64,000 nucleotides of DNA from Magnolia sinica (taxonomy: Eukaryota; Streptophyta; Magnoliopsida; Magnoliales; Magnoliaceae), in contig NC_080583.1 of assembly GCF_029962835.1 (NCBI RefSeq), forward strand, positions 51,067,658 to 51,131,657, given 5' to 3'. Shown here one piece after another: positions 7,083 to 63,381 of this stretch. Both the position numbers and the translations under genes were made by a program. The notes under the pieces were generated by a model. It saw only the letters and a program-made list of their open reading frames with translations, was not told where the DNA came from and searched no databases. Positions within the stretch are counted from its first letter, which is position 1. Each line of letters starts with the position of its first letter.

Positions 7083-7900
7083 CACCTAGCATATCAATAA
7101 GTTGGATGGCAAATAAACATTCCCGTGGAATCTATGAAGTTTTAAAGGTAGGGATTCAATCATGATTGTTTCATATGGGTAAATGTGTCAAATTAATATA
7201 TTTCAAACATTTCAGACGTTAGTTAACAAACAAATTATTTAGATTTATTATTAGTTTTTTGACTTCAGATTCAAACTTTAAATTCAGATTTTAGATTCAG
7301 ACTTCGGATTTCAGATTTACCAAACATGCCCTTAGGATGAGAGATATAAGTGGAGAATCACCTAAGCTCTAATTGCATAAAAAATCCATCCAAATGTCCA
7401 ATGCCCAAATGTCCTTTATATAGAAAACAATTTGCAACAATTATAAAATGTGAAAAAAAATGACATTCTCGATCGATCGACCGAGGGCTATTAATTGATC
7501 AAACTTTGTCAAATTTGGTTAGAGAACTCGTTGGACAATTATGGCCATGTTCGATCGATCGAGCTTGACCGTTGATCGATTGAGAGTGCTGGTTTGTGCA
7601 GTTTGGTTTCTAGCAACTTGGGAACTCTTTAGCTTATTTAAGCATGGTTAAATGGAGCTACTAAGGCTAAAGGATGATCAATTGAAGGTATACCTATTAA
7701 GGTCAGGATTATCTAAAAGTTATGTTGTTTTGGATTTAAGGTTATGATCACCAAGGCACCTCATGATTTATCTTATATTCAGTCATTGATGCTTCTTGTT
7801 CTTATGTCTTAGGTCTTTAACTTTTAAGGGCTCAATCAACTCAAAGACATGACTTACATGATTAACAAATATGTATACAAATAAGTGCACTAACAAAGAC
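7083..7900. repeat. LTR-like sequence with GATCGATCGA palindromes
   Basis: The sequence includes CGATCGATCGA-type palindromes at about 7470-7485 and 7550-7580 and a GTCCTTTATATAGAAAAC stretch (about 7410-7428) that could be a TATA region. The style matches copia LTRs carrying repeated palindromic boxes, as at 20100-20350 and in the element at 40283. No internal region is attached, so it would be a fragment. Confidence 0.3.
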
Positions 7901-31200: not shown

Positions 31201-34200
31201 TCTCTTTCTTCTCTCCAATGCTTCTCTCTCTCCCTCAGGTTAAATCTCTTCTCCTCTAATTCTTCTTCTTATTTTCCTCATTAACGCTAGCCCACACACA
31301 TGTAGCACATTGTTCCCTTTTACAGTTTAGAAAGTGGCATGAAAAACACCAGATTTTTGAGTTCCTTGTGGACTTGGTGACAAATTTAAGCCTCAATGTA
31401 TTCATGTCTTGGGAAGGGAATCCATGCTTTCATAGAAATGGTTTATAATTACCTTCGGATCGAGGCCATTCGTTGTGCTTCCATTGCTTCCCAGCCTTCA
31501 CTCAGTTTAAAGAGATCAGTAGTTGTTTGATCCATACCAAGGGGAGAAAGTCCTCCACAAAGAATAACAAATGTATTGATTATGCAGCTTCTTGAACCAT
31601 GGGTAGAGACATCTTGATTTGTTCTCAATGTGGCAGACAATATTACACCTAAGATTTTTGTTATGATTTTGCACCTACATCTTCTACCTTGGCCCAAGAA
31701 AGGGGCTAATGCTGCTACAATTGAGGAGCACATCTTGTCTTTCTAAGTTATCATGTCTCAACATCGAGTTGTTGATTCTCACGGCCTAGTTATGGATCCA
31801 TCGGGAGACACTTCAGGTGTCTATACCAATCATGTGTCCCAGCTTGTCAACTGACCACATGACTACTTAGGATGGTAATTTCCTTGTATATTCTCCCTTT
31901 CCTTATAAAGTCCAACTAGCTGATGGGTACTACTCTAGAGTATCTGGGAAATTCTATCAGCTAGGTTTCATTAGTGCTCTAACCAAACAATTTCACTGCT
32001 CTAATACCATGATTTTGGCCAGAGAAATTAGCGTTAGGATCGATCCTTCACCCAATCTTATTTATAAGGCTAAAAACATATGGTGATCCAAAGGACTATG
32101 GAAATACAGATACTACTAACAACAGTTCTGATGACTACATCTACATGGAATCACCGCTTTATAAAATTCTTCATGAAGAAGATCCTTGCTTCATGATTCC
32201 TCCCAAAGAAAGGACTAACCACCTATTCACCTACAGACAGTTTTAGGGTACTTTAACCTACAACCATATTTACAAGCATTTTTTTTCTCTCAAAATATTT
32301 GATGTTTAGGGGCAAAAGTGGAAGTAAATTTTCCAGAGGTATTAAAAAATAGGCAGTAGCATGCTGCCAATAGGTGATCAGTTCTCCCAATAAGAAAAGG
32401 GCGTCAAAATGCCCAAACTACTTAAAGTGTTGTTTGGATTTTCAGTTAGTACAAGCAGTGGTAATGGTCCACCAATCCATACAGCTGATATGACATACCT
32501 CGTAGTGGAATTGATGGTCCACACCCAAGAAATCCCCTTGACTGAGCAATCCAAGCTGTATTATATCTGCAGCTTTCCCTTTGTTGAATGTGAACCATTG
32601 CTGTATTTTCTCTGTCAACGGACTACTGTTTGACCTACTACTGAATGTTAGAATTCTTCCCATCCCATGGGTTTTTTGGTGAATGGGACATCCAAAGTGG
32701 GCCATAATACCAAACCTTTTGATCTCTCAACCATACGCCTCACTTGTCCCCACTTGCACAAATGAAAACCCATAGAAGAACCTCTCAGGCTAGCATTACC
32801 TCAAAACTTCTTGCACATGTGCACCATTTGCAACATGGACAACCGAAAAAGTATGCCACAAAACATCCAGCTTAATTTATCAAAAGCATCGATTCTAAAA
32901 TCTTAGGTCTCGTCTGATTGACATTTAAAGATAATTTAATCTCATTTTAGGTAATAATAATTATGATTTTACAGATCATAATTTATATAAAGTTATGACT
33001 TATAAAGATTTTTTAAAGGGATTTTTTTTATAAAATGCAACCTTTTTTTTTTTTGGCATAACTAGATAGAATCACCCAAATTAATTTTTTTTAGATGTCA
33101 CCACCCACATTTGAGGGTCTCTTTATTTTACCACTTTCCGTGGAATCCAAGTCACATCCATTAACCTATTTCTAAAAATGACGAAAATACCCTAAAAGGG
33201 GCATCTTTACATATATTGATGGAAGGTTCAGTCCAAATTGCTACCCACCATCTTGAAATGGCCCAGACTGCTGTCCACTTACTCTTTAACGGTCTTGATT
33301 GCTGTTTACAATCTTGGAATGGACAAGATCACTGTCCGCATACTTTTGAACAGCCTAGACAGTTGGCCACCTACTTTTGAATGGTTCAAATCGCTAGCCA
33401 CCTGGAGTTGAATGGTCTAGATCAGTATCCTCCATCTTAAAATGGTCTAGATCATTGTCCATGAACTATTGAACAGTCCAAATTGTTGTGCATGTTATCA
33501 TTTCTTTAGGAGTGTTTTCATCATTTTTAGAAATAGGCTAACTGTCATTGCTTGAATTTGATAGAAAGTAGTAAAATAAAGGGAGTCATGAAAATGTGAG
33601 TGGTGATATCTAAAGAAATTTTCTTTTAGAATGCTTGTCTAATTAGGCTAAAAAACAAGTGGCATGTCCTAAAAAATCCTATTTTTTATCCTTACCAAAA
33701 CCTCTAAAGCATAATTACATATATCTGAAATGAGATAAACTTATTTTTAAGTAGTAAATAAACAAGGCCTTAGCATACCTGCTAGATCCAAAGAAAACTA
33801 GATTGAGTGAATAAAGTGCATTCCTAGCAGAACCCCTGAATGGTTACTAGCATGCGCCCAAGAGCATTAGAAGAGAGAAAGGGATGGGGTTGTTCCTTAC
33901 TTTGAGAGGCGTTGGCAAGGCTGCCATTCGGAGCATAATCATAGATAACAAGCTTCTCATCTTCTCCCCAATGGAACCCTCGCAATCGAACCAGATTCGG
34001 GTGGCGTAACTTGGCAATGATCTTCACCTGGTTTTCAAAATCCTTCAATTTATCTATGTAACTCTCTCCTATCCTCCGAACCGCGAATGTACTCCCATCA
34101 TCAAGCACAGCTTTGTAAACGATGGTGGGACCGGCAGATCCAAGAATATAAGCTGAAGCTTTGAGCAGCGTCTCCAGCTCAAGCTCCTGTTCTCCATCCA

Positions 34201-35545
34201 CCATAACAAGCGCACCCCCATTTCTCTCCTGCTGCTGCGGCTGTTGATTAGATCTCTGTTCTTCAGCTTCCGATCCTGTTGATTCCGATGCTTCCTCATT
34301 GCTGCTGCAGCTGCTGGTTCCTTGCTTACTTAAACAAGGCCATCGGATCTTTGGAGAATTGGAAGGCGAAGATTCCTCATTTCCTGACTTTTCTACCGTC
34401 TTTTTGTCTTCTGATTCCATCTTCTTCCTTTTTGCCCTCTTGGACTGGTACAAGTATAGTCCTAGTACTGAAACAATGCCGATTCCCACTAAATCTCCGA
34501 TGATTATTCCTATGATAACCCCTGGTTTTAGCCCTCTTTCCGTCTCAGCCACATTCCCCGGCCTGGCTCCGGGCGGGCCATCCTTGGGTTTGTCAAGGCT
34601 CTTGGGAATGGCTGCGATCGCAAGAGGAGTAGTTGATGTAGAGCTGTTGGGCGGAGTAGACAATGTAGAAGGAATCGAGCATGGATTCTTGAGCGGTTTC
34701 CCACACAGATCAGGATTCCCGGCAAACGATTCTGCTCTCCGATAATCAAAGCCACCCTTCTCAGGAATTCCACCCCCCAATTTATTAAAAGAAAGGTCCA
34801 AACTAGCGTTCGCTGGGATTCCTGATGCGAATCCTGGCGATATCCCTCCCGAAAGCCTGTTGTAAGAAAGATTCAAAGAACGGAGGTTACGGCCTCCATC
34901 GACTAAATCCGTCGGCAGAGAACCATTCAAGAGGTTCGAAGACAGATCGAGGACCTCCAAATTGCCGAACCCACGGGGAAGGTTGCCGTACAAGTAGTTA
35001 TTACTCAAGCAGAGAACAGTGAAGTTGGGGAGAGAAATCAAACTGTCCGGGATCCTCCCCGTCAATGCATTATCAGAAAGGTTGAGGAATTCAAGGCTTT
35101 TAAGGCTCCCAACGGCGTCAGGAAGCTCGCCAGAGATCTCATTGTTGGCGAGGGAAAGGATTCGAAGCTGGGAAGCATTGAATAGAGATAGAGGGAGGGT
35201 GCCGTTGAGGAAATTATCTGATAGATCAAGCTGTTGGAGTGTATCGATCATGCCAAAATCAGTAGGGATGGAGCCGAGAAGCTTGCTGTTAGGGAGAGCC
35301 AAGCTCGTAACCCGACGAGACCATGAAGATTCTACAAGTAAGTCCGTACACTGAATCCCGTTCCATTGGCAAGGAGTGTCGTCGTTGTAGTTCCAGCTCT
35401 CGAGGACTGAGAGAGGGTCGCTGAGGACTGAGTATTTGAAGGAGAGGAGGGAGATGCCGTCCGAGTTGAGAGCTGTGAGTTGGATCGGACGAGTTAGAAG
35501 TATGAGGGAGAGGAAATGCAGAGTGGAGGCGAGACGGAGAATCAT
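28247..35545 (-). CDS. LRR receptor-like kinase, probable pseudokinase (At4g37250/At2g23300 type)
   Basis: Plasma-membrane receptor of the plant LRR-RLK family. Exons on the minus strand are 35545-33901 and 28896-28247. The intron is GT-AG (AAA|GTAAGG, TGCAG|AG) and the join is in frame, giving 764 aa. Residues 1-25 are a signal peptide, 27-66 the LRR N-cap (CQWNGIQC) and 84-265 seven to eight LRRs (LxLxxNxLxGxIP). C281/C289 form a C-cap, a Pro/Ser/Thr stem follows and 343-366 is the transmembrane helix. Residues 367-450 are a basic then Ser/Glu/Gln-rich juxtamembrane region, and 455-764 the kinase fold. The VAIK lysine is Arg (AVRR, 488-491), the HRD aspartate is Asn (HGNLKPTN, 584-591) and DFG is kept (604-606). 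Catalysis is therefore doubtful, as in its relatives. An upstream in-frame ATG at 35575 adds ten basic residues; I prefer 35545 because it starts the signal peptide. Ligand unknown. Confidence 0.9.
29137..29635. mobile_element. MITE with perfect 18-bp terminal inverted repeats in the kinase intron
   Basis: AGTAGTGTTTTAAATAGC at 29137-29154 is the exact reverse complement of 29618-29635. The 499-bp interior is AT-rich with many GCTACGTAGC/GCTACA words near the left end and GCTATG near the right. It encodes nothing. The flanks do not give an unambiguous target duplication, so the superfamily is open. Confidence 0.7.
30132..30311. repeat. Direct duplication of about 79 bp, offset 101 bp
   Basis: 30132-30210 and 30233-30311 align without gaps. 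Both carry CATTGATTTA(A/G)GTGATA(A/G)GATGC, ACCAGTGGGAGC and the ending GGTCAGGCCCA. They lie in the kinase intron. A long minus-strand open frame across them (30370-29837) is produced by the repeat and lacks any domain. Confidence 0.8.
30590..31090 (+). pseudogene. Copia gag relic inside the kinase intron
   Basis: The plus strand reads MDAQLNGESG (start 30590), then TYLTWSQSAKKYLGREQKLGYIDG, EWVSDNYIFTSWLLHSM and a stop at 30836. It continues PEFSG, AKKIWDTVAETYSHKDD, a stop, HRKITHIQQGN and, after a frameshift, WKELDYY. This is the UBN2/Retrotran_gag-type N-terminal gag of plant copia elements (LTWSQxVKxxLxGRxKLGYIxG; WDTVxxTYS; LxxKIxxxxQG). Stops and a frameshift disable it. It lies opposite in strand to the host kinase gene. 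The pol part was not recognised further along. Confidence 0.75.
31091..32280. other. Kinase intron, unassigned retroelement-like DNA
   Basis: It follows the gag relic and may be the rest of the same copia element, but I saw no convincing protease, integrase or RT motif. Pyrimidine-rich at 31185-31265. Confidence 0.3.
32281..33079. other. Kinase intron, no feature recognised
   Basis: AT-rich, without a bounded repeat or coding similarity. Poly-T runs at 33026 and 33044. Confidence 0.3.
33080..33630. mobile_element. Foldback element with about 110-bp inverted ends and internal 35-bp repeats
   Basis: 33085-33190 and the reverse complement of 33520-33625 align over about 110 bp, sharing words such as ATTTCTAAAAATGA, TTTATTTTAC and GATRTCACCAC. 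Between them, at 33240-33490, lie about eight diverged tandem copies of a 33-36 bp unit (TGGTCTAGATC, a GTCCAC-like box, CTTTTGAA). It sits 270 bp from the exon 1 splice donor of the kinase gene. Inverted ends around a minisatellite are typical of plant foldback transposons. Confidence 0.65.
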
Positions 35546-36100
35546 GCTTTGTTTTTTTTTCCTGAATGATTGCACGTCGTCGCTGTTTCTATCTTTCCAC
35601 TGCTAAAACGAGGGGATATAGAAAAGGCTGAGACGCAAAGGAAAGGAGAAGAAATTTATTACTCTGGCTCAGTGGGATCGATGATACGACGGTCATTTGT
35701 AACTTGCATGTTTAATAGAAGCAAGTTAAATCAAACCGTCCAAATTATGCGTAATAGCTTAGTTTCATGGAAAACCTTAAAAAAGAAAAAAGAAAAAAGA
35801 AAAAGAAGAAGCTCACTTGATTATCTAACTATCAGATTGGTGAGCATTTAATGGACCGTTTAAAAAGGAAATATCCAATGGACATTTGATTGGGAGTGTT
35901 CAATACCACAACGTAATCTGTTTTACTCTAGATAATATATGTGACGTGTACACTTTATAATTGCCTGCGTATCAAGACGGCATATATAAGCTGGAGTATG
36001 AGTAACTTACCTACTCCGCTGGCATGACTAGTATCCTTGCTGGTTTTGTTAGGAGTGGATTAGGTGCGGTCCTTACCATTGATGTCCGTATTCCACTCCC
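35546..36100 (-). other. 5' flank of the kinase gene
   Basis: This should contain the 5' UTR and promoter of the minus-strand kinase gene. An A/G-rich run lies at 35779-35808. No certain TATA box was found by eye. Confidence 0.4.
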
Positions 36101-40228: not shown

Positions 40229-40282
40229 ATGGCTCTGAAGAAATCAAAACTTTCTGAAATTCTAGTATCTCTGACTACTTCT
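40229..40282 (+). pseudogene. N-terminal fragment of the PMD gene, cut by copia insertion
   Basis: ATG at 40229 gives MALKKSKLSEILVSLTTS, open up to the exact left border of the copia element at 40283. The rest of the gene resumes beyond the element at 45433. Assignment to the PMD gene rests on strand, order and the leader upstream. The 18 residues alone have no recognisable domain. Confidence 0.45.
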
Positions 40283-40864
40283 TGTTGCGCAGCACGCCAA
40301 CAACGCTAGTGAACCGAGATCCAATTTCTAGTATCACCCACAAACAATAAACAAGAAAAAATATAACCTAGAAGAAGAATCAAAGCATTCTACACAAACC
40401 ACAAGACAGAATATACGTGGAAAAATCCCAAACAAGGGTAAAAAAAATCACTGGTGCAAGCTTCCACTATGAAGAAAAATGAGATTATAAGCAATATACT
40501 AACCTTTTCCCTTTAGACATATAGAGAAAGCCCTTTGCATACACCTTAGAATAACTCTCATAACCCTAGAAAAGCCCCAGGGACCCCTATTTATAGTTTA
40601 GACAACTTCCCTTTCGCACCCTTACGAAACCGACTTAAATTTCTCAGTTCGTATCAAATCTGCAAAACGAATCTGCGTAACCTCGACTGGTTGAGCAAGC
40701 TACTCGACTGGTCGAGCGTCGAGCACGGGCCTCGACCGGTCGAGTACCTCGGAACCAAAAAACTGATGCTCGCTGGACTTTGAGTTGAGCCAGTCCTCGA
40801 ATGGTCGAGTGGGCCACTCGACCGGTCGAGCAACCCTGTCCAGATGTGACTCCACATCCCAACA
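40283..40864 (-). repeat. Copia 3' LTR
   Basis: Contains five copies of the palindromic box CTCGACYGGTCGAG (40682-40835), where the other LTR has seven. This accounts for most of the length difference. Confidence 0.9.
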
Positions 40865-40934
40865 ATCCCCCACTTGGAGACACATCACCATAAACCTATG
40901 TCTTCTACATCCGGAGTGCACCACCTCCCCATCT

Positions 40935-42068
40935 TCAAGCCTGAAGACCAATCAAAGCTGAACAGAGCTTCAGCTTCTCCCGTGTGACCGCCTTGGTTAG
41001 CATATCCGCAGGATTCTCACTTGTATGAATCTTCTCTAGAGCAATTAATCCATCTTCCAGTAACAAACGTATGAAGTGATATTTGATGTCAATATGAAAG
41101 ACTAAATTCTTAGCCAAGTGTATTGCACTCTGACTGTCACTGTACATCTTGCAATCTGCTTGCTTCTTACCCAACTCTTCCATGAAACCTTGCATCCACA
41201 CCATCTCCTTGCATGCTTTTATAGTTGCAACATATTATACTTCCGTTGTACTGATAGATACTATCTTCTGTAACTGAGAGACCCAACTGACTGCAGCACT
41301 ACCCAGAGTAAAGACATAACATGTAGTGCTTCTTCTGCTGTCGATATCTCCTGCCAAATCTGAATCTATGTAGCATTGTAGCTTGATTTCTGATCCTCCA
41401 TAACACAGCCCTACATCCTTAGTACCTACTAAGTATCTAAGGATCCACTTCACAGCTTCCCAATGTTCCTTCCTGGGGTTGTTCATGAACCTACTAACAA
41501 CTCCCACTGCTTGAGCAATATTTAGCCTCATGCGCACCATAGCATACATGAGACTCCCAATAGCTGACGCGTATGGGACTTTAGCCATGCAGTCCCTTTT
41601 CTCCTGCGTCTTCGCACCTTGTTCCTTAGAAAGCTTGAAGTGGTTGGCTAATGAAGTGCTAACCGGATTAGTACCTCCCATATAGAATCAATCAAGTACC
41701 TTGGCTATGTACTCTGCCTATGACAAAACTAGTTTCTTATTTTTCCTGTCATGCTTTATCCTCATGCCTAGGATTTATTTTGCAGCTCCTAAATCCTTCA
41801 TGGAAAATTCTTTAGACAGTCGTCTTTTGAGATCTGAGTTGTTCTTCATGCTCGATCTGACCATAAGCATATCATCAACGTACAGAAGAAGGATGATGTA
41901 AGACGTATCAAACTTCTTCAAATAGCAATACTGATCTACTTGACATCTCTTAAAACCATTTCCCGACATGAAACTGTCGAACTTCTTGTACCACTGCCTC
42001 GGGGCCTGCTTCAGGCTATATAGACTCTTCTTTATTCTACACACCTTGTTCTCCTTTCCTTGTGCCAC
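40935..42068 (-). pseudogene. Copia reverse transcriptase and RNase H, broken
   Basis: 42068-41775 reads CRIKKSLYSLKQAPRQWYKKFD and LLLYVDDMLMV, the copia RT palm with an intact YVDD. The same frame continues through stop codons near 41775, 41700 and 41235 into SALYAMV-like RT thumb and RNase H sequence (41681-41235: MYAMVRMRLNIAQAVGVVSRFM, CYIDSDLAGDIDSRRSTTCY). It then reaches MYSDSQSAIHLAKNLVFH, ADMLTKAVTREK (41204-40935). All segments share one frame, so only point-mutation stops interrupt them. Confidence 0.85.
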
Positions 42069-42361
42069 GTATCCTGTCGGCTAATGCATATATATCTCTT
42101 CTTTAATGTCGCCATGAAGAAAGGTTATCTTAACATCTAGTTGCTCTAGATGTAAGTCCTATATAGCCACTATACTCAAGACAATGTGAATTGTAGACAT
42201 TTTCACCACAGGTGAAAATATTTCAGTGAAGTTGATACCTGCCTTTTGTTAGAACCCTTTCACAATCAATCTAGCCTTGTATCATTTTGAACCATTGTGC
42301 TCTTCCTTCAGTCTGTAAACCCACTTGTTATGAAGAGCTTTCTTACCCTTGGGTAGAGTGA

Positions 42362-43922
42362 CTAGCTCCTATGTACGATTAGACTCAAGAGAGTATCCAT
42401 GGCCTGCTCCCACTTAGCCCGTGTATCTAACTGTAATGTCTCTTCAAAACACTCTAGTTCACCATTATTTGTCAGCAGTAGATAATATAAGGAGGGTGAG
42501 TATCGGATCGTGGGTCTCCCCTCCCGAGTAGACCTCCTTACAACTGGTGTTTGCGACTCTGCCTTATAATACTCCTGTGCATGATCATCCTGTGGCACTG
42601 TAACACTTGTGTCCGGTAAATCTTCCAACTCTATGAATTCTTTCTCATCAGCCTTATTTTGTTGCACATTAACCTTATACATCACTTTTTCATTGAAGAC
42701 TACATCTTTGCTTCTGATGATTTTCCTGTTTTCTATATCCCAAAACCTGTAGGCAAAATCATGCTTCCCATAGCTTATAAACGTGCACCTCCTGGACTTC
42801 GCATCCAGCTTGTTTCTATGCTCTGCATCAATGTGAACATATGAAGTGCAACTAAACACTCTGAGATGTGTAAGGTTCACTTCTTTCCAAGTCCACGTTT
42901 CTTCTGGTAGCCTACCATCCAATGGTGCTGAGGGACTTCTATTGATGAGATATGCGACAGTATTCATGGCATCTGCCTAAAACGTCTTGGGCAACCCTAC
43001 ATGTAACCTCATACTCCTGGTGCGCTTAAGGATATCCTGTTAACGCGCTTAGCCACACCGTTCTACTGTGGTGTCCCTGGAATCATTTTCTGATATTCGA
43101 TTCCATTTGCTGCACAATACTCCTCAAACCTCTTATCACAGTACTCTCCCCCATTATTTGATCTGATACATTTTACAGTTTTACCTATCTCATTTTCTAC
43201 CATTACTTTCCACTTCTTAAATACATCGAATACATCAGATTTATGCTTTAAGAAATAGACCCATATTTCCTACTAACATTATCAATAAAAGAAACAAAAT
43301 AACGTGAGTCATCAAGAGATGATACCTGTGCTGGTCCCCACACATCAGTGTGTACAAGCTCCAATAGATGTGTCTTTGGAACGCGTCCTGTTTTCTTAAA
43401 ACTTACCATCTTCTGCTTACCATACATGCAGTCCTCGCAAAATTCCAAGTCAATAGACTTCAGCCTTGGCAGCTTCCCTTTTGATAATAGCAATTTCATC
43501 CCTTTCTCACTCATATGTCCCAACCTCTGATGCCATAATTGCCCGTTCACTCCAGTTGATGCGACTGCGAGTGAACTATACGATCCTAAAGTCACGTACA
43601 AAGTACCTTCTTTCTTACCTCGAGATATTACCAAGGCACCTTTTGTGATCTTCCAGGAATCACTAGTGAATGTCGTCACATATCCGGTATTGACCAACTG
43701 CCCCACTGATATCAAATTCCATTTCAAACTCGATACATGTTTGACATCCTTCAATTTCAAAGTCGTTCCATCTTTCTGATTTATATGAATGTCTCCCTTT
43801 CTAAGAATACTGCACGGCTCATTATCACCTAGGTAGATTCTCCCGATGTCACTTAACACATAATCACGCAGAACTTCTTTACACGAAGTGGCATGAAACA
43901 AAGCACCCGAGTCTATGACCAA
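42362..43922 (-). pseudogene. Copia protease end, GAG-pre-integrase and integrase, broken
   Basis: Minus-strand 43922-43248 starts with the copia protease box (VIDSGALFHAT). It then reads LWHQRLGHMSEKGMKLL with the CxxC of the integrase zinc finger (FCEDCMYGKQ) and VHTDVWGPA and FIDNVSRK of the DDE core. 43247-42968 is frameshifted (an RSNNGGEY-like motif and GTPQ-N-GV remain visible). 42967-42362 gives MNTVAYLINRSPSAPLDGRLPEETW and LRVFSCTSYVHI, the integrase C-terminal region. At least two frameshifts separate the pieces. Confidence 0.85.
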
Positions 43923-43999
43923 GACTCATTCCTTGCATCAAGAGACAAGATCAACGCCTCTGTGTCACTCTCCTCAGATAGATTCACTAAATCATTCCC

Positions 44000-44617
44000 G
44001 CATTGAGAGCTTCCTTCTTGATTCTTAAACACCTTGTAATCACCTTTAATCTGTCCTTTCTTCCCACAATGCCAACACCCATCTTTATCTTTCGGTCCCT
44101 TAGACTTCTTCCTCGACTTAGAACGTCCGTGTTTATTGCCTCATTTGTTCAGCGATTTTTCTCTTCCTTCAACGTTTAGAGCATTCCCTGAATCCCCTAA
44201 AACTCCCGATGTCTTTCTTCTAGATTCTTTGTTGAGAATTAGACCGGCCACATCATCGAACTTCAGCTTTGTCGAACTTAAAGAATTGCTCACGGCAATC
44301 ACCAAACCATCCCAACTGTCTGGTAAACTGGACAAGATCAATAACGCCCTAACCCCATCCTCAAAAATAATGCCAACAGATTTTAATTGGCTCGTGACTA
44401 TATTGAACTCGTTTAGATGTTCAACCACGCTCCCACCATCTGACATCTTCATGTTCAATAGCCGTTTCATGAGATGAACCTTGTTGGACGCTGAGAGTTT
44501 TTCATACATCGTAGCTAGGGCTTCCATTAATTCTTTTGTGGTTTTTACCTTGGATATATTAAAGGTGACGATCTTAAACAAAGAGAGTCGGATCGTTCCT
44601 AAAGCCTTCTGATCCAA
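44000..44617 (-). pseudogene. Copia gag with zinc knuckle
   Basis: Minus-strand 44617-44141 reads MDQKALGTIRLSLFKIV, ELMEALATMYEK, HLNEFNIVTSQLKSVG and ILSSLPDSWDGLV, a classic copia gag (UBN2) core. A stop near 44140 is followed by a basic stretch and the CCHC-type knuckle WHCGKKGQIKGD (about 44080-44045), in which the last Cys/His are altered. The start of gag in 44700-44618 is also disrupted. Confidence 0.85.
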
Positions 44618-44818
44618 TAAAAATCATTCATCATCTGTTATCTTCTCTGGTTTCTTCTCTTTTCCTTCTAGAGGAATATAGAGGTCCTTCTGATACAGAT
44701 AATCCTCCATCTGCATCTTCCAGAAGGCAAAGTTTGAACCATCAAACTTCTTAATTCTAATCTTTCATTCTTCTGTCATCGCTCCCACTTCAACTAAACT
44801 AATAGCTTTGATACCAGT

Positions 44819-45432
44819 TGTTGCGCAGCATGCCAATAACGCTAGTGAACCGAGATTCAATCTCTGGTCTCACCCACAAACGATAAACAATAAGAAATAT
44901 AATTTAGAAGAAGAATCAAAGCATTCCACACAAACCAAAAGACAAAATATACGTGGAAAAATCCCAAAAAATGGTAAAAAACCATGGGTGCAAACTTCCA
45001 CTATGAAGAAAAATGAGATTACAAGCAATATACTAACCTTTTCCCTTTAGATGTCTAGAGAAAATCCTTTGCCCACACTTTAGAATAACTCCCATAACCC
45101 TAGAAAAGCCCTAGAGACCCCTATTTATAGTTTACGTAACTTTCCTTTCGCACCCTTGCGAAATTGACTCAAATTTCCACAGTCCGTATCAAATCTACAA
45201 AAAGAATCTGTATAACCTTGACTGGTCGGGCAGGCTACTCGACTAATCGAGCGGACCCTCGACCAGTCAAGCATGGGCCTCGACCGGTCGAGCACTTCGG
45301 AACCAAAAAAATGATGCTCGCTAACTTTGAGTTGAGCCAGCCCTCGACTGGTCGAGTGGGTCACTCGACCGGTCGAGCAAGGCACTCGACTGGTCAAGCA
45401 GTCCTGTCCAGATGTGATTCCACATCCCAACA
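44819..45432 (-). repeat. Copia 5' LTR
   Basis: About 90% similar by eye to the 3' LTR. Seven palindromic CTCGACYGGTCGAG-type boxes lie at 45218-45402. The PBS adjoins its left edge. Confidence 0.9.
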
Positions 45433-52533: not shown

Positions 52534-53375
52534 TGTTATGGGAAGATCCGAGCCCTTTCAATTTCGAGGTTCGACGCCATCTTAATCTGATCAAATGCAT
52601 AAGAGATAATCTGGAATGGTGAAAATGATTGAAGGAAGAAATGATTCTCGGCTCGGCCCCAGTTGTGCTCCTACTCCGAGATTGTCAGTTCAAAATAATC
52701 TGAGGCTGGGACAGTTAGTGTGAAGCTCAGACCGGAACTTACTTGCAAGACCTTGGGCCATCTCACTACTGCTCGACCAGAGATAGATCGTCCAACCACC
52801 CACATCTGCATGTTGCCCGTTACGGGGAAACTCAACTAAACGAATTAGTTAAGCCCATTAACTGCCTCGGTGCTCGAAGGGGAGAGCTTGAAGGTCCGAG
52901 GCTCGGAGTCAGGGTCTCTTTAGTCTGAGATTCCAAGCTAAGGCTGGGGCCGGATGTGAACATCCCATGCACTAAACTAAGAAACTGCCTTAAGCGGATA
53001 TTAATGAATATCTCGCCCACAGATACGCCCCTCTAAGGGACGATACGTTACACAATCCCTGGATTACGGACAATATCTCCACGATCATAGTATCCCACTA
53101 ATTGAGTGAATCGTGCCGAGATTAACGGACCCAGACCGTCCGATAGGTAGGTATAAATACAAGGGGATCTCATTACTACAGGTATACAACATCTAGCACC
53201 CTCTTACTACACTCGAACTTAGACCCAGATTCCCTTGACCTGACTTAGGCATCGGAGGGTCCCCTGCCTAGACTAGGGTCTCCTTTGCTCATTGTGAGTG
53301 TGCAGATTCAAGACGCTAAAGCGGCTCTGAGTTCGTGGATCGGAGTAGAGGGTCGTCCAGATTTAGTCATCAACA
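52534..53375 (+). repeat. 5' LTR of the Tat element
   Basis: Contains TATAAATA at 53152-53159, the likely core promoter, and ends CATCAACA before the primer-binding site. Confidence 0.92.
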
Positions 53376-53434
53376 TTTTTGGCGCCGTCTGTGGGAAACT
53401 GATACGAAAGGTCAGGTTCCTATTCTTAAGCATA

Positions 53435-54990
53435 ATGGCAAGAGGAAAGAAGAAAGTGGTAGCTGTGGAACCGGAGCAAAATCATCAGAACCGTTCCTCT
53501 TCGCTACTTCACGCCGAATCGGCTCTAGGGCTTTCCCAGCATTCTCGTAATCAGGCGAGAAAGTATCGAGCTATGCAAAGTGAGATACAAGCCTTGTGCG
53601 ATGAAATTAACCAGATGAAACAGCAATAGTAGCCGCAGCCACATCCTACTCAGGAAAATCCTGTTCCAGAACCGGTTGGTCCAGTAGTAGAAGCCCATTC
53701 CGCGCTGAGTATGAGACCCGAGGGGCCCCAACGTCAACCCGCTCGGGTGTCAGCTTCAGTTCAGGACCCTCCCCCGACCCAAATCCGAGTTCCGACCCTG
53801 AACACAGTGACTCGAGTGCCGATGAATGCCTTAGTTACCTCGGCCCTGGCACCAACAGATTTTCGCCATGAGTTAGAAAGGAGGAGGGGAAGGAGAACTC
53901 TCGAAGTAGAAAACACATAAGAGATGGTGGCTAAAAATAAAGATCCATGGGAGACATGGTTTGCGGAGCTTAACAACAAGATTCTGACGCTAGAAAAGAA
54001 GCAGTAGCCGTTGTCAGTTCCCGCCGCCGTTCAAGCAATGATGGAAGAGACCGAGCTCCATTCACCTCTGCGATCATGAGCAAGGTGATACCACAGAGGT
54101 TTCGTATACCTCTTATCATCTAATACTCTGGGTCTTGTGACCCATCCAAGCACGTGGAGGCTTATCATTCATGGATGTAAATCCAGACAGCAAGGGACGC
54201 GATGATGTGCAGGGGTTTTTCGATCACGCTCACAGGATCTGCTTGGAGTTGGTATCGTCAGCTCAAACCCAACTCCATTGGTTCCTTCACAGAACTCAAC
54301 CGATTATTCCTTAACCAATTCATAAGCGGTAAGAAGAGTCGAAAGCCGAATACTCATCTGTTCACCATCAAGTAAGAGCCTAAGGAGTCATTGAAGGACT
54401 ACATCGCTTGTTTTAATGAGGAAGCATTATAGGTGAAAGACTACGACGACAAGATAGCACTCTCTGTTATGTTCAGTGGTTTGAAAGAGGGAAAGTTCAC
54501 CTTCTCTATTGGAAAGAATCCACCAAAGATGCTAGCTGACCTCGTTCCCAGAGCTTAAAAGTATACTAATGCTGAGGAATTCTCCAACGCCTGCAAAAAT
54601 GTTCAAGTGACAGAGCCGACTGGTAAGGGGAAGAGGTCAAGGAACGCAGAACCTCAGGCATCCAGCAAAGGACCAGATGATCAAGCTTTTCGCGATCGTC
54701 GTCCGAGCAGAAAACCAGAGGATAAATTTCACTCCTACACTCCCCTCAACACATCTACTGAGCAAATTCTATTGGACATCAGAGGGCACAAGCTTCTGAA
54801 TTGTCCTGTCTGTATGAAGGCTGACCCGGATCATCGAGACAAATGCGAGTACTGTCGTTTCCATTAGGATCACGGCCACAACACAGCCGATTGCATGGAT
54901 CTCAAAGATGAGATCGAGACCCTTATTCGTAAGGGTCATCTGTGCCGATATACCAAGGAAGAGAGAACCGCTTGGAAAGAAGAGTGAGAG
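53435..54990 (+). pseudogene. Gag of the Tat element, interrupted
   Basis: ATG at 53435 starts MARGKKKVVAVEP, followed by a polar region with a TAG at 53627. After several lesions the Retrotrans_gag core is readable at 54250-54600 (LKPNSIGSFTELNRLF, NQFISGKKSRK, LFTIK.EPKESLKDYI, VMFSGLKEGKF). 54607-54864 gives KPEDKFHSYTPLNTSTEQIL and DKCEYCRFH; after a [28 protein letters not shown] completes a CCHC-like knuckle (CxxC...HxxxxC). The motif order is that of Tat gag. It encodes the capsid precursor and is inactive because of stops and frameshifts. Confidence 0.85.
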
Positions 54991-55119
54991 CAGCCGAATA
55001 ACACCACAGAAGAGCTAGCCGAAACCCACACCATCTTTGGGGGCTCGTTTGGTGGAGGAGATTCGAACTGGGCTCGAAAAGCCCATTCTTGAAAGTCTGA
55101 TCTAGAACACTACATCCAC

Positions 55120-55815
55120 ATGACTGAGCGGCTGAGCAAAGAACTCCAGGTCAGCCCGTGCAGTATGACCTTCTCGGAAGACGATGCGTGCAGAATCCAG
55201 CATCCGCACGACGACGCCCTAGTAGTTATTATGACCATAGCCAACTACAAGGTGTACCGCATCTTGGTCGACATCGGAAGCTCAACAGATGTGATATATT
55301 CTGAGGCTTTCAAAAGAATGGAGATTCTAAGGTCATGCCTCAGACCTGCGAAGACACCCTACACGACTTTGCCGGAGAAAGGGTCTCTTCGAGGGAGCCA
55401 TCTCCCTCCCTATGGCCGCGGGAGAAGGACAACATCAAATCACCCTCATGGTAGATTTCCTCATTATCAATGTGCCATCATGCACAACGTTATTCTGGGC
55501 AGACCTTCTTTCAATGCAATGAGGGCAGTCGTCTCCACCTATCATTTGATGATGAAATTTCCCACCGAGGGCGGAATAGGCTACCTTCGAGGTGACCAAC
55601 ACGAAGCTCAGAGATGCTACGCGATAGCAGTGAAGAAAGGGTTCGTGAAGCAAGCGCTCACCGTCAACGTTCTAGATCCCAGAGGACCTGTGGAGGACTC
55701 ATCTGTGGAAGACCTAGAGAAAGCACCGCTCGACGAGGCAAACTTGAGCAGAACTGGACAGCTCGAAACATCGTTGAATTCTGAGCAGCGGTCCGAAATG
55801 CTAGCCTTCTTATGA
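55120..55815 (+). pseudogene. Tat protease region
   Basis: An open segment of 231 codons. YRILVDIGSSTDVIYSEAF is the retropepsin active-site block, with the usual DTG/DNG read as DIG. ILGRPSFNAMRAVVSTYHL is the conserved flap-proximal block. A frameshift-like disturbance lies around codons 85-115 (SLRGSHLPPYGRGRR). The segment runs on into the linker to RT and stops at 55813. Confidence 0.8.
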
Positions 55816-55865
55816 CAACACAGAGATGACAACACAGAGATGTCTTCACATGGTCGCATGAATAC

Positions 55866-57090
55866 ATGCCTGGGATCTCTCCGGATGTCATGGCCCACAA
55901 GCTGAATGTGGACTCGGATTACAAACCCGTGAAGCAGAAGAGAAGACCGTTCGATGTTGAGCGGTATGAAGCCATAGCCGATGAAGTCTCTGTACTGCTC
56001 GGCACTGGTTTCATAGAGGAAGTACACTATCCCAATTGGATCGCAAACGTGGTCCTCGTCAAGATAGCCAACGGGAAATGGCAGGTCAGTGTGGATTACA
56101 CGGAACAAGGCCTATCTGAAGGATAACTTCCCATTACCTCGGATCGATCAACTGGTGGACAACATAGTGGGGCACGGATTACTCTCCTTCCTGGATGCTT
56201 ACTCCGGATACAACCAGATCGCGATACATCCCCCAGACAGGCAGAAGACTACCTTCGTCACTGACAAGGGACTTTACTGTTACCGGGTCATGCCGTTTGA
56301 CCTGAAGAACGTTGGGGCCACGTATCAGAGGCTGGTGAATCAAATGTTCGCCAAGAAAATAGGGCACACTATGGAGGTGGAGGAACCTTCGCCATCCTCT
56401 GAGAATATCAGATGAAGCTGAATCCCGCGAAGTGCGCCTTCGGAGTTGGCTTCGGTAAATTCCTCGGGTTTCAAGTCAGCCAAAGAGGCATTGAAGCGAA
56501 CCTCGACAAGATCAAGGCACTCCTCGATATGAGTTCGCCTCGGACTATTGAGGAGATACAATGCCTCACCGGACGAGTAGCAGCACTCGAACAATTCATA
56601 TCTAAAGCTACGAACAAATGCCTCCCCTTTTTTTCAGCAGTTGAAGGGTTATAAGAAGGTAGAATAGACGTCGGAGTGTGAACAGGCTTTCCAGCAGCTG
56701 AAACAGTATTTAGGTTCGTTACCCCTACTGTCTAAGCCCGAAGAAGGCGAGCCCCTGTTCTTGTATCTTGCAGTCTCAGCCTCAGCTGTCAGCTCGGCCC
56801 TGATTAGAGAGGTAGGGGCCAAGAAGCGTCCCGTATATTATGTGAGTAAGGCCATGGTGCCCACCGAGACGAGATATCCAGCTCTGGAGAAGTTAGCGCT
56901 CTGTCTCATTGTCTCAGCTCGGAGGTTACATCCCTACCTCCAGGCTCATTCTATCATCGTCTTGACCGACTCTCTCCTTAAACAAGTCCTCCAGAGGCCT
57001 GAAGTGTCAGGTCGGCTAACCAAGTAGGCCATTGAACTCGGGGAGTTTGACATCCAGTTCCGACCAAGGACAGCCATTAAGGGCAAGCTG
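55866..57090 (+). pseudogene. Tat reverse transcriptase and RNase H with catalytic deletion
   Basis: 55866-56100 reads VKQKRRPFDVERYEAIADEV, WIANVVLVKIANGKWQVSVDY. A small deletion shifts frame at about 56103, then NKAYLKDNFPLPRIDQLVD, FLDAYSGYNQIAI and MPFDLKNVGATYQRLVN follow. At 56371-56385 MEV is joined directly to TFAIL, so about 20 codons including the catalytic YVDD are lost and the frame shifts. 56412-56654 resumes MKLNPAKCAFGVGFGKFLGF, and 56761-57027 (LALCLIVSARRLHPYLQAH, VLTDSLLKQVL) is the first RNase H. It cannot be active. Confidence 0.88.
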
Positions 57091-57610
57091 TGGCTGACTT
57101 TATTGTAGAATTTACCACCCCGAACGAAGAAGGGATCAGTGCCGAAGTCGAGAAGGCTCATTCGCCTGTCCCTCCAAGTGATCAAGAGGCGGTATCAGAA
57201 CCAGGATGGATTCTCTATGTAGATGGGTCGTCCAATGCTAAGCGTGCCGGAGTAAGAATTGTCCTAGTCGCACCTGATTCCACACCCATTCAGTATGTGA
57301 TCAGACTCGGTTTCAAGACCTCTAACAATGAGGTGGAGTACGAGGCTTTGCTGGCCGGACTCAGGCTAGCGGCCAGTCTGGGAGTCCAGTCTCTCCAGTT
57401 ACGATGTGATTCTTTGCTAGTACTGAACCATATCTCCACTGAATACGAGGCCAAGGAGACTAGGATGGTTGCCTACCTCGCCGAAGCAAGGAAGCTGATA
57501 GAAAGATTTTGGAGCTGCACTATCCATCAGATTCCTAGAGCAGAAAATTCCTGAGCCGACGCCCTAGCGAAGCTAGCCTCGGTCACGGAAGGGAAGATCC
57601 CGCGAGTCAT
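57090..57610 (+). pseudogene. Second RNase H (archaeal-type) of the Tat element
   Basis: WILYVDGSSNAKRAGVRIVL, NNEVEYEALLAGLRLA, LRCDSLLVLNHI and, after a TGA at 57552, ADALAKLAS carry the D-E-D-D set of an RNase H fold. A second RNase H downstream of RT/RH marks the Tat lineage. The domain is nearly intact: 154 open codons, with one stop shortly before the last catalytic Asp. Confidence 0.85.
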
Positions 57611-58925
57611 TCCCGTGGAATTCATAGAACATCCGAGCATCGACCAGACGGAGAAGAAAACGGTCAATCCAGTAGATGATACTCTGAGCTGGATGGACCC
57701 GATTTATAGCTACCTCACATTTGGTGAGGTCTCCTTATATAGGTTGGAAGCTAGGCGCCTGAGAGTCAGAGCAGCACGGTATGTAATCCTGGATGGGATC
57801 CTGTATAAGAAAGGACATTCATAGCCCTATCTCAGGTGTCTCTGACCCGATGAGGCAGATTATGTGATTCGGGAGATTCATGAAGGCATTTGCGGAAATC
57901 ACTCTGGTGGTCGAGCCCTAGCTTTAAAAATACTCTGCCAAGGATATTTTTGGCCGACCATCAGGGAAGAGTCGAAGAACTATGTTAGAAGGTGCAACAA
58001 ATGTCAACGGTACGCGGCTGTGCCAAGGTAACTAACAGAAGAAATAACTCTCATGAGCGGTCCGTGGCCGTTTGCTCAGTGGGGGATCGAAATCATCGGA
58101 CCCCTACCCACTAGGAAAGGACAAATCAAGTTCGTCATTGTTGCAGTTGACTACTTCACCAAGTGGGCCGAGGACGAGCCCGTTGGAAAGATCACAGAAC
58201 AGAAGGTTGTTGATTTTGTCTGGAAAAACATCATCTGTCGATTTGGGATTCCATGCACCATCGTGTCTGATAATGGCAGGCAGTTTGATAATGACAAGTT
58301 TCGAGGTATGTGTCGAGTGCTCGGCATCATGAATATGTATTCTTCGCCTCGGCACCCGCAATTCAATTAACAGGTGGAGGCAGTTAACCAGGTCATCAAG
58401 CACCATCTCAAAATAAAATTAGAGAAAACGAAAGGTAACTGGGTTGAGGAGCTCCCATTCATCCTCTGGGCTTACAGGATTACGGCTCTATCATCCACTG
58501 GGGAGACCTTATTTTCACTTTTCTACGGCTCAGAGGCAATAGTGCTAGTTAAAATTGGCCTCCCTACAGCTCGGGTCAGAAATTATCAAGAGAATCAAAA
58601 CGCCGAGCAGATGGCAGCCAACCTGGATCTACTTGAAGAAGCTAGAGACATCTCTAGACCCTGGGTCGCTGCTCGATATCAACAGGTAGCGTCATTTTAC
58701 AATTATAAGGTCAAGACCAGATGGTTCCGTCCAGGGGACCTAGTCCTTCGTCGAGTCTTTTAGAACACCGCAGAACTGTGGGCTGGGGCACTTGGGCCTA
58801 ATTGGGAAGGGTCATATCGTGTGGTCCGACCGACCAAACCTATCTCCTACCACTTAGAAGATCTCGAGGGTTGTTAGCTCCCCCACCCTTGGAACGCTGA
58901 ACATCTAAAAGTTTACTACCCTTGA
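57611..58925 (+). pseudogene. Tat integrase
   Basis: The zinc-binding HHCC motif is readable at 57880-58015 (HEGICGNHSGGRALALK and CNKCQRYA). The DDE core is WGIEIIGPLPTRKGQ (first D replaced by E in the usual GxDxxGPL), VSDNGRQFDNDKFR (second D) and QVEAVNQVIKHHLK (E), the last after a TAA at 58368. The C-terminal part reads WFRPGDLVLRRVF, stop, WEGSYRVVRPT, HLKVYYP, with a final TGA at 58923-58925. Five or more stops are present. Confidence 0.87.
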
Positions 58926-59549
58926 TGTAATGGTCGTCGAGGACCCCCAATAAATGTACACCTTCGAGCGGCTAGCCTTTAAGGCCCCCAATAAAATTCA
59001 CATTTCTTCGTATCTACATGAGCGCATTATCTACTAATAAAAAGTTGCCTCTTATAAGCAGGGGCCGACTTAACGAACTGATCCCTTAAAAAAGGGGTTA
59101 ATACGTTATCCCATGGAAGTTCCATAAGGCATCCCCTCATATTAGGGGGAAAAGCCCATAGATGACCCGACTCCTCGACAGAGAAGTCAGTTCATCGTCC
59201 GACCAACTGGTTTATTAAAAGTTTCTCGCCAATCGTGGGAGGAACCGATCCCCTAGGGGTCCGGTCCTAACAATTGCAATACCGCAGAGTTCTACGAAAT
59301 GACATTAAAATGAGCTAACCCGTCTAGGAGTCGGCTCGGCAATGCCCCGAAATGAACTAACCTGTTAATGAGTCAATGATTCGGTTCGACAATCAACAAT
59401 TAATAATCACCATCCAAAAATCAACTATGGATTAACATATAAAAAATCATCATCCACATGCCCTCTCTAGGGGGTAAAAAAATATCATCCATCGGATAAT
59501 TCACCAAAAGACAAGTTCAGAAAAGTTATAAAGAGAGAAATGTTGGAGA
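58926..59549. other. Untranslated stretch between pol and antisense gene
   Basis: Contains GGAACCGATCCC- and AAAAGGGGTTAA-like short repeats and several CTAAC(C)CGT words, but no coding frame. It separates the convergent 3' ends of pol (plus) and the antisense gene (minus). Confidence 0.4.
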
Positions 59550-62114
59550 CTATCCAGTTGGAGGAGCTTGGGAGGCAGGAGCTTGATCTGGGCGAGCGTC
59601 ATCTTCGAGCAGCAGAGGCTCAAGGTTAAGGTCCGGATATAGATCCTATACCGCATCAATGCAAGCATCGAAGCCACAGTTGTAAAACTTTGTAGCTTCA
59701 GCGGCCCTCTCCTCTGACGCCTTGAAGGCATTTACTGTTGCAGCCACCGCCGAGGCTAGGGAGCCTCGTCTTTAGATCGTTGAGCCTTCTTCGCTTGGAA
59801 GACCGCTCTGTGCAGCTCTTCCGTCGCCTCGGCTCTAGTCTGCTTCAGCGCATTCACCAATCGGGCGTTCTCCTTGGCGAGTGAGTCTGCATGGGCCCTG
59901 GCTCAGGACAGCTCAGCCACAGCAGCACCGCATCTGGCTTCAAGATCGCTCACGACCACCTTCAGCAGGAGCTCACGGATCTTTCCCTTGTCGAGCTGCC
60001 GACGCAGTTCCGCCTGCTCCATCCAAAGGAAGGTGGCCTCGTCTCGTAGGGTCCCGACCTCGCCCTGGAGGGTTTTCACCTCAGCGTCTTTCTTCGCAAG
60101 CTCCCTCAATCTCTCCCAAGTCAGAAGGAGCCTTGGGACGGACTGAACAAAATCAAAATAATGAGCATTCAAACATAGTAAAAACTGAAGGTAGGAAAAG
60201 TTGATAGAAGTACCCAGTAAAAGATGGAAGTATGTCATTGACGACAAACTTGTCCGATTTGGTGAGAAGGATGGATATCTCCTCCTTCGGGTCGTGCTTA
60301 GCAACCCAGCGGACCAAGCAGGACATGTGGTAGCCCGGATGAAATCTCTCCCCGCTTGTTCCCACCTGAGCCGACCCTGTCACTTCCCTGGCCCTAGTCT
60401 GGCTGCCTGTTGAGGCATGAGCCTCAGTCCTAAGATCGTTTTCGACTTCGGGAGGGGAGAGCATGGCGTCAGCCATCCAAACGGCCTCCTCCTGTTCGGA
60501 TGAAGGTGGGACAGCTATGCAGGGCTCGGGGGCTGCGCGGGGAGCTTCAGTAACATGAGGGGTGACGACGGGGGGAAGGGTTGGAGCCGGAGCATTGACA
60601 GTAGTGATCTCAGCAGTAAATGGTGTTGGAACTGGAGCTGCAGTGACAAAAATTAGGGCCGAATGGCCCTTGCCATGAGGAGCAGCCAGCCTCCTCTGAA
60701 CAGTAGTCTTTGTTCGGGTTTCGGCACTCAACATCTCCTCGACCATTAGGGCGACCTTCCTCCTTTGGGACCTAGAAGCCTCGGCCATGCTTGCGTATAA
60801 AGTAATGAATTAACAACCAAGTTAAGAGATTCAATCCTTTCAAAGTAAGGAACGAAAGAAAAACTTACTGAAGGAAGTGGGGAGTGGCTTGGACTTGCAA
60901 AGTCCGGACCAATGAAGGTTGGCGGCTATGATCAGATCCGACCAGGAGCATAGGTCTCCCGAGCGTGCCCTAGCCTTGGCAACCTGATTCTTCTGATTCG
61001 AGGTAAGGAGAGGCAAACCTCTTAAAAAATTTACAGAAATAAAAGAAAAGCTTCAGTCCAACCACAACAAAAGGGAAAAGGATGTAAAAAAATAAAAAAT
61101 GTGTAAGGTTCGACCTAGTGTAGTAAATCGGGTGGGGACCTGAGTCATCAAGTTCCCAAGCTTTACTGCAGGCACCTCCTATTCGCCCAAAGCCCAGAAC
61201 CATTTATTCTTCCAATCCTTGTTAGAGGATGGAAGATTCATGACCACCCCCGACCCTTTGCTACCGCAAGTCGGAAGTAATACCACGGCTCATGGCTGTC
61301 ATGCTTGACTAAGTACAAGCTTATCAGCTCCTCTGGTGTCAGCTCTGGGTTCTCAACTTGACGCCAGATGATGTGAGAAGAGATCAAAACCCTCCAAGCA
61401 TTGGGGGTAAATTGGCTAAAAGCAAGTCCCAAGTAGGTCGTCAGGGCTCGGACGAAGGAATGCATAGGGAGTCGGAGTCCGCATTGCAGAGCGCAAAGGA
61501 AAATTGTGACTTCCCCATCAGCAGGAGCATCGGTGGTGTCGAGGGGCTCTGGCGCCCTTATCTGTACGGAGTCCGGGATCTCGAACTCCGATCAGATATA
61601 TCCCATCTGGGACTCCACCAACACGGAGCCTCTCGGGATGACCTCCGAGGCTCACCCACTCACGGGTATCTCGGCACCGCCCGTCACAGATTCTCAGGGG
61701 GCTCAGGCGGTCTTCTTTTTTGCCTATGCGGCGCGTCCGAGCCCCCACTTCTTCGCCCCTTCTCAGCTGGGGAAAGAGAAGTACTGCTTCTAAGGGGCCT
61801 TCAGATACCCCTCTCCTGTCATTCGAGCTTCCCGGCCCAGAATCGTCATCCAGGTCATAATCTTTTCGGACCATATCCAAATCGGTTAACATCCCATAAA
61901 TAAGAGAAATAAAAAAGCGCTAAAAGGAGGGACTCACCGGAAAGTCACTGGGAATCACCTCTGCCAGAAACCCCTGATAGGTCGAAATCGCCCTGCCGGA
62001 AGCTTCAAATCGGCCGGAATTGCCTTCATCGAAAATCGCCTCCTCAGGAAATCAACAATCACAAATTCAGAACGCAAAAATGAGGAGTGTTTCCAAAGCG
62101 CTAGGGTTTATATA
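59550..62114 (-). pseudogene. Spliced antisense gene of the Tat element (Transposase_28/PF04195-like)
   Basis: Runs opposite to pol. A TATATAAA at 62114-62107 (minus) with AACCCTAG just after it is a plausible promoter. An early exon (about 61892 to 61130) contains EFEIPDSVQIRAPEPLDTTD and then MHSFVRALTTYLGLAFSQFTPNAWR and HEPWYYFRLAVAKGRG, the core of the family named putative gypsy-type transposon (PF04195). Further exons are visible: 61020-60868 (NQVAKARARSGDLCSWSDLI, donor CAG|GTAAGT), 60789-60214 (MAEASRSQRRKVALMVEEML, then a Pro/Ala/Thr-rich stretch, donor GG|GTAC) and 60142-59550 (WERLRELAKKDAEVKTLQGE..., a long coiled coil, ending APPTG). TGA at about 61590, frame changes near 61237-61465 and a stop in the last exon show decay. 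The function is unknown. Confidence 0.75.
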
Positions 62115-62540
62115 GCCTGGGAGAGACCTTTGCATTAATGGTGAAGCATAATGGCCGCAGCCGAATCGTCGCGAGCCGACTTCGGAACACACGTGGATGT
62201 AGGTCACTGGCTCAAGCTCTGCCAGACTGCGTGCTTTTGACATTGGGTGATGAGCGCGAGGTAGCAGAAATGGTGCTCGAGCAAGGGAAGCGTCGCTCGA
62301 ACGTCTCTCATGGCATACATGGTGGTCAACCATAGGGTCAACGATTATTCGAGATCTTAACCGTCGCCACGTGTCTGCTGGAGGTGAGCCTGTGACAAAA
62401 AACCCCGAGGACGTATCTTTTCCAACATAGAAATCATGATTGTAACCGCATGCGTGGAAGATACGACAGGGGAAGCTGTTGATCTTCCGCACATATTTAC
62501 TCTCCGAGTCCGTGTCCGAACTTGAAGAGTAGGGGGTTTC

Positions 62541-63381
62541 TGTTATGGGAAGATCCGAGCCCCTTCAATTCTGAGGTCTGACGTCATCTTAATCCGATCG
62601 GATGCATAAGAGATAATCTGGAATGGTGAAAACGATTGAAGGAAGAAATGATTCTCGGCTCGGCCCCAGCTGTGCTCTTGCTCCGAGGTTGTTAGTTCAG
62701 AATAATCTGAGGCCGGGACAGTCAGTGTGAAGCTCAGACCGAAACTTACTTGCAAGACCTTGGGCTGTCCCACTACTGCTCGACCAGAGACAGATCGTTC
62801 AACCACCCACATCTGCATGTTGCCCGTTACGGGGAAACTCAACTAAACGAGTTAGTTAAGCCCGTTACCCACCTCGGGGCTCGGAGGGGAAAGCTCGAAG
62901 GTCCGAGGCTCGGAATCAGGGTCTCTTTAGTATGAGATCCCAAGCTGAGGCTGGGGTCGGACGTGAACATCCCATGCACTAAACTAAGAAACTACCTTAA
63001 GCGGATACTACCGAATATCTCGCTCACGGATACGTCCCTCTAAGGCATGATACGTTACACAATCCTTGGATTACGGACAATATCTCCACGATCATATTAT
63101 CCTACTAATTGAGTGAATCATGTCGAGATTAACAGACCCAGACCGTCCGATAGGCAGATATAAATACAAGGGAATCTCATTGATACAGGTACGTAACATT
63201 TAGCACCCTCTTACTACACCCGAACTTAGACCCAGATTTCCTTGACCTGACTTAGGCATTAGAGAGTCCCCTGTCTAAGCCATGGTCTCCTTTGCTCTTT
63301 GTAAGTATGCAGGTTACAGACCCTAAAGTGGCTATGAGTTCATGGATCGGAGTGGAGGATGTCCCGATTTAGTCATCAACA
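62541..63381 (+). repeat. 3' LTR of the Tat element
   Basis: TATAAATA lies at 63159-63166. About 90% identical by eye to the 5' LTR with a strong C/T and G/A transition bias. Confidence 0.92.

Follow-up and report, generated by a model that had tools for sequence, protein, structure and literature searches.

The retrotransposon at 52534-63381

Self-comparison of the window (the whole 64-kb stretch of DNA that was analysed) delimited a Ty3/gypsy element at 52534-63381, with the 4-bp sequence CTGT on both outer flanks of its LTR pair. The LTRs were found to have diverged by a K2P distance of 0.1125 over 841 columns (72 transitions and 14 transversions), and at a substitution rate of 1.3e-8 per site per year the element would be about 4.3 million years old. 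Directly inside the 5' LTR, at 53380..53395 on the plus strand, lies a stretch beginning TGGCGCC that we take to be a candidate primer-binding site. The LTRs and the pol domains recognized are as follows.

52534..53375 (+): 5' LTR, TG...CA ends; 89.7% identical to 62541-63381
56068..56412 (+): pol reverse transcriptase (RT) piece; PF00078 RVT_1, 4.8e-08
56668..57024 (+): pol RNase H; PF17919, 2.8e-20, and PF17917, 1.8e-14
57081..57551 (+): pol second RNase H, in the aRH position between RNase H and integrase; PF13456 (RVT_3), 1.1e-16, and PF00075, 6.5e-06
58032..58367 (+): pol integrase core; PF00665 (rve), 4.8e-11
62541..63381 (+): 3' LTR, TG...CA ends; pairs with the LTR at 52534-53375

Pol is split into many frames, the RT itself being in pieces, and no Pfam match was found for the gag-pol pieces 53633-53917, 54559-54864, 55093-55812 and 58371-58760. 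The domain order RT, RNase H, second RNase H and integrase is that of Ogre and Retand, the angiosperm Tat subclades described as having an additional RNase H placed between the first one and integrase (PMC6317226). An antisense ORF with the TRP28 domain (PF04195), which marks Retand, was found in the region separating pol from the 3' LTR. The earlier note had claimed a Tat-type element, and this is borne out by the position of the second RNase H and by the antisense PF04195. The LTRs (841-842 bp), the internal region (53376-62540, 9,165 bp) and the distance of approximately 3.8 kb between the last pol frame, which ends at 58763, and the 3' LTR all fall inside the ranges given for Retand, which are 315-1,194 bp, 7,380-12,869 bp and 2,933-6,566 bp, respectively (PMC11963269). 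Taken as a whole, these features are best explained by a probable decayed Retand-type (Tat lineage) LTR retrotransposon.

Tandem repeats, a feature that membership does not require, were limited in the TRF search of the element to a 14-bp unit at 55812. This unit is repeated 2.2 times with no mismatch at 55812-55842 in gag-pol, where one open frame ends at 55815 and the next begins at 55830. Elsewhere in the window, an LRR receptor-like kinase gene occupies 28247-35602 on the minus strand; it consists of two long ORFs 4.9 kb apart, with a GC content of 0.38 between them and 0.49-0.50 within them.

Coding content and layout on the antisense strand

The minus strand between pol and the 3' LTR was resolved into the candidate layout below, given in the direction of antisense transcription.

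62106..62115 (-): TATA box, CTATATAAAC; 0.10 expected per window, 2 seen
61938..62085 (-): putative exon 1, possibly 5' UTR; ends at the donor 61937, start placed from the TATA box only
61862..61937 (-): probable intron A, at the T-rich, low-GC island 61855-61928; acceptor 61862 tentative, read by eye and unscored as a pair
61115..61861 (-): putative exon 2, the TRP28 exon; in-frame stops and a frame change
61385..61501 (-): PF04195 (TRP28) match, residues 31-69 of the ORF 61238-61591
61019..61114 (-): putative intron B as drawn; 96 nt, GC 0.29, T 0.52; in phase, donor weak
60869..61018 (-): putative exon 3; one frame open
60790..60868 (-): putative intron C; 79 nt, GC 0.30, T 0.46; out of phase
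60214..60789 (-): putative exon 4, Pro/Ala-rich; fully open, holds most of the 218-aa frame
60143..60213 (-): putative intron D; 71 nt, GC 0.30, T 0.51; out of phase
59550..60142 (-): putative exon 5, coiled-coil-like C-terminal part ending in a stop codon; stops and a frame change
59211..59550 (-): 3' UTR-like stretch; T-rich at 59373-59550, AATAAA at 59216-59211, 3' of the last stop

The antisense PF04195 coding content that had been claimed earlier, and for which a profile search had been asked, was recovered in the minus-strand ORF 61238-61591 scoring 30.7 bits (cut-off 26.2) and covering positions 3-41 of the 69 in the profile. A TATA box 5' of the antisense segments had likewise been claimed and is present. 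The four longest stop-to-stop frames of the minus strand were 218, 158, 133 and 117 aa, lengths that were matched by rank in 4, 3, 3 and 1 of 500 dinucleotide shuffles, respectively, and the sum of the four was matched in 1 of 500. The plus strand of the same stretch likewise has long frames (196, 121, 120 and 118 aa). The 196-aa frame, at 61313-61903, lies opposite exon 2 and is perhaps a shadow of the antisense frame.

The coiled-coil content proposed by the earlier note was upheld in part, one of four 42-residue windows having a clear heptad pattern (equalled in 5 of 2000 shuffles), and was marginal or absent in the other three (73, 69 and 707 of 2000 shuffles as good). Family searches returned no match for 61518-61919, 61602-61916 or the exon 4 ORF, and for the coiled-coil ORF only two matches, both under the cut-off. 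The PDB sequence search gave two matches with E values of 0.14 and 0.8, which were taken as chance, and no Rfam match at gathering scores was found in the 64-kb window.

With stops and a frame change in both exon 2 and exon 5, the antisense gene of the present copy is a pseudogene, and its decay matches that of the pol of the same element. The present copy is broken and therefore shows an ancestral layout rather than a working gene.

Intron-like blocks, splice sites and reading frame

The exon-like blocks have a GC content of 49-57%, compared to 29-30% GC with 46-53% T on the antisense strand in the blocks between exons 2 and 5. A scan for 70-nt stretches in which GC did not exceed 0.33 and T reached 0.44 or more gave four island groups within the antisense gene (60133-60241, 60790-60879, 60980-61133 and 61855-61928), and further ones in its 3' flank at 59373-59550. 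All were T-rich on the antisense strand only, the sense strand having none. No island was found on either strand of gag-pol (53376-58930), of 62086-62540, of the 5' LTR or of the two host kinase ORFs. A scan for candidate introns, defined as GT...AG pairs of 60-200 nt with T at least 0.42 and GC at most 0.38, gave 26 on the minus strand compared to 0 on the plus strand, with 3 non-overlapping ones compared to at most 1 in 300 shuffles. The composition limits of both scans were chosen after inspection of the sequence, and the 26-to-0 strand count is not independent of the islands since the T filter sees an AT-rich block on one strand only. Introns of plant pre-mRNA are T-rich on the coding strand, and the T-richness of the antisense strand is the best evidence for splicing, which appears to be the likeliest reading of these features on sequence grounds.

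AT-richer 2.57-kb blocks of the window contained up to six non-overlapping T-rich GT..AG stretches with a score of at least 6 per strand. A single stretch of this kind is consequently weak evidence, and it is the contrast between parts of one element that carries the argument. Taken singly, the splice motifs are unremarkable: the two top donor-like motifs of the stretch lie on the plus strand. The best minus-strand donor is CCG|GTGAGT at 61937, the end of exon 1. The earlier note had described GT-AG joins at 60868/60789 and 60214/60142. Such pairs do exist, but the positions cited mix intron and exon bases; strictly, the two introns would run 60868..60790 and 60213..60143. Besides these two, there is a T-rich block at approximately 61114..61019 and probably another after the donor 61937.

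The best-scoring site pair was out of phase at all three junctions tested. Among the 25 pairs listed (of 26), 9 were in phase, which is the level of chance, and junction phase was rejected as evidence of splicing. At least one weaker in-phase pair is available at every junction, for example 61114..61019, 60864..60790 and 60249..60132. The intron B pair 61114..61019 scored 6.5 and ranked sixth among the 17 pairs listed for that junction, the best being 61166..61021, which scored 7.3 and is out of phase. For intron C, the weaker donor at 60864 would restore the phase, and for intron D the donor 60249 scored 14.0 compared to 11.0 for 60213 and is likewise out of phase. The out-of-phase junctions may be part of the decay, or the sites may be wrong. 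An antisense gene of several segments with introns, as the earlier note had it, is thus upheld as to the presence of intron-like blocks and falls short as to the two junctions that it named, both being out of phase. Overall, its observation was partly confirmed and its interpretation partly supported.

In a codon-usage scan of 34 windows centred at 62030-59555, the best frame was antisense in 22 and on the plus strand in 12. Upstream of TRP28 (62030-61655) the plus strand was best in six of six windows. Frame -2 was best in six of the eight windows across exon 4 (60755-60230) and frame -0 in all six across exon 5 (60155-59780), so that the best frame changes across intron D.

Alternative readings, relatives and possible role

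We give a probability of roughly 70% to the reading that this is the antisense accessory gene of the lineage, carried by a Retand-type element, with its own promoter and no fewer than three small U-rich introns, probably four. The gene lies on the 3' side of pol, ahead of the 3' LTR; its promoter would be just inside the 3' LTR, and it would be transcribed by pol II into a separate antisense transcript that is spliced by the host. Its product would have three parts in order: the TRP28 domain, a Pro/Ala-rich linker and the coiled-coil-like part. The introns would survive since reverse transcription copies the sense RNA alone, in which they lie backwards and hence remain unspliced. The earlier reasoning that antisense introns survive by not being removed from the sense genomic RNA was judged sound.

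Two adjacent antisense genes, one for TRP28 (exons 1-3) and one for the coiled-coil part (exons 4-5), each possibly with introns, would account for the ATG at 60788, which stands at the head of exon 4 and could begin a separate gene, and for junction C being out of phase with the best sites. They would also agree with a survey of Retand in which 104 antisense ORFs were recorded in relation to 63 clusters, with 11 Smc domains among these ORFs (PMC11963269). However, the GTAAGT...AAG ends and the T-rich 79-nt block between the two halves look intronic, and the weaker donor at junction C is in phase; we regard two genes as unlikely. An intronless antisense gene, in which the AT-rich gaps are later insertions or decay that mimics introns, would suit a copy as decayed as this one, given its LTR divergence (K2P 0.1125), and the out-of-phase best sites at all three junctions. 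Against this, the decay of methylated elements should affect both strands and pol equally, whereas each of the four island groups has its T-richness on the antisense strand, and the gag-pol of the same copy has no such island. We regard an intronless gene as improbable.

It has also been suggested that the antisense RNA rather than a protein is what matters, with convergent transcription giving dsRNA and siRNA that silence the element. The gene lies wholly within the region that the sense genomic RNA crosses toward the 3' LTR, and silencing by dsRNA from antisense transcription has been proposed, together with a call for attention to antisense and spliced transcripts (PMC7264820). Such a reading, which we consider improbable, leaves unexplained both the long antisense frames and the occurrence of TRP28 in nearly all Retand clusters (PMC11963269).

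The gene is of a known accessory kind, here probably with introns, and is not a new kind of system. Antisense TRP28 ORFs are a hallmark of Retand, being reported in 97% of its clusters, and TRP28 is predicted to bind DNA (Vicient 2025, PMC11963269). The account in the earlier note is to be corrected in that this kind of gene was already well described as the Retand hallmark (PMC11963269), and that both the antisense promoter and nuclear product of maize Grande and the dsRNA idea were in print (PMC7264820). The present copy resembles the Retand TRP28 ORFs in its antisense orientation, its place between pol and the 3' LTR, its TRP28 domain and sizes within range, and its coiled-coil-like part recalls the Smc-like domains of some Retand antisense ORFs (PMC11963269). 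It differs in that the survey deals with ORFs (at least 600 bp, from ORF Finder), while here three or four introns are needed to link the parts (PMC11963269). TRP28 in ORFs shorter than 600 nt was reported in five clusters, three from Sambucus and two from Camellia (PMC11963269), which may fit a gene split by introns. The antisense gene of maize Grande, gene23 (Gomez-Orte 2013, via PMC7264820 and PMC11963269), is likewise a 3' internal antisense accessory gene that has a promoter of its own and encodes a nuclear protein (PMC7264820), the likeness being one of description and not of sequence. An intron in a Tat-clade element has a further parallel in the gag-pol intron of Ogre (PMC6317226).

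A multi-exon antisense gene had been presented as a puzzle; given the spliced antisense transcripts of HTLV-1 to -4 (PMC10186651), the layout is less puzzling than first claimed. HBZ of HTLV-1 and APH of HTLV-2, -3 and -4 come from a spliced antisense mRNA in a reverse-transcribing element, and the proteins are reported to be nuclear (APH-3 also cytoplasmic) and regulatory (PMC10186651). Their promoter lies in the 3' LTR and is not internal, and no TRP28 is reported for them in the available text, so that they offer a precedent in working and not a relative (PMC10186651). Their introns may persist for the same reason as those proposed here.

By analogy with these spliced deltaretrovirus antisense proteins, a nuclear protein could regulate the element at transcription or at a nuclear step of its cycle. 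A regulatory protein is a tentative assignment of the role, some other role is rather unlikely, and RNA or siRNA alone and a combination of protein and RNA or siRNA are each distinctly unlikely. With somewhat less than even confidence, we suggest that the separately catalogued Retand antisense ORFs (TRP28, Smc/coiled-coil and TRP28 ORFs under 600 nt) all belong, as exons, to a single spliced gene under its own promoter, resembling the deltaretrovirus genes and independently evolved, whose antisense orientation guards its introns from loss at reverse transcription. If such genes are routinely spliced, surveys built on ORFs would have described only incompletely the principal accessory protein of a plant retrotransposon lineage that is widespread. 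The introns would also mark antisense expression, since a spliced read must then stem from the antisense gene and not from genomic RNA. The layout is a useful lead for splice-aware re-annotation.

In the text of PMC11963269 the word "intron" is absent and "exon" and "splic" occur in the reference list only; introns in a Retand-type antisense gene are not discussed there or, in the portion available, in PMC7264820. No paper on introns in a Tat/Retand antisense gene was among the matches listed. The likeliest sources, Gomez-Orte 2013 and Steinbauerova's extra-ORF paper, were outside this scope, and the layout is not claimed to be unpublished. In searches for relatives, a viral contig scan that used the TRP28 ORF as query gave 8 pattern matches, and a scan of contigs from prokaryote genomes that used the RT piece gave 56; none was confirmed in either case, and tblastn of plasmids with the TRP28 ORF gave no match.

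Two other repeat features were observed in the window. Minus-strand Ty1/copia pieces at 40282-45380, with copia-type gag, Pol_BBD, GAG-pre-integrase and SH3_retrovirus domains, are flanked by a direct-repeat pair (40282-40833 and 44818-45380) that is 86.6% identical. An inverted repeat at 6660-7085, with arms of approximately 155 bp that are 76% identical, is perhaps a MITE.
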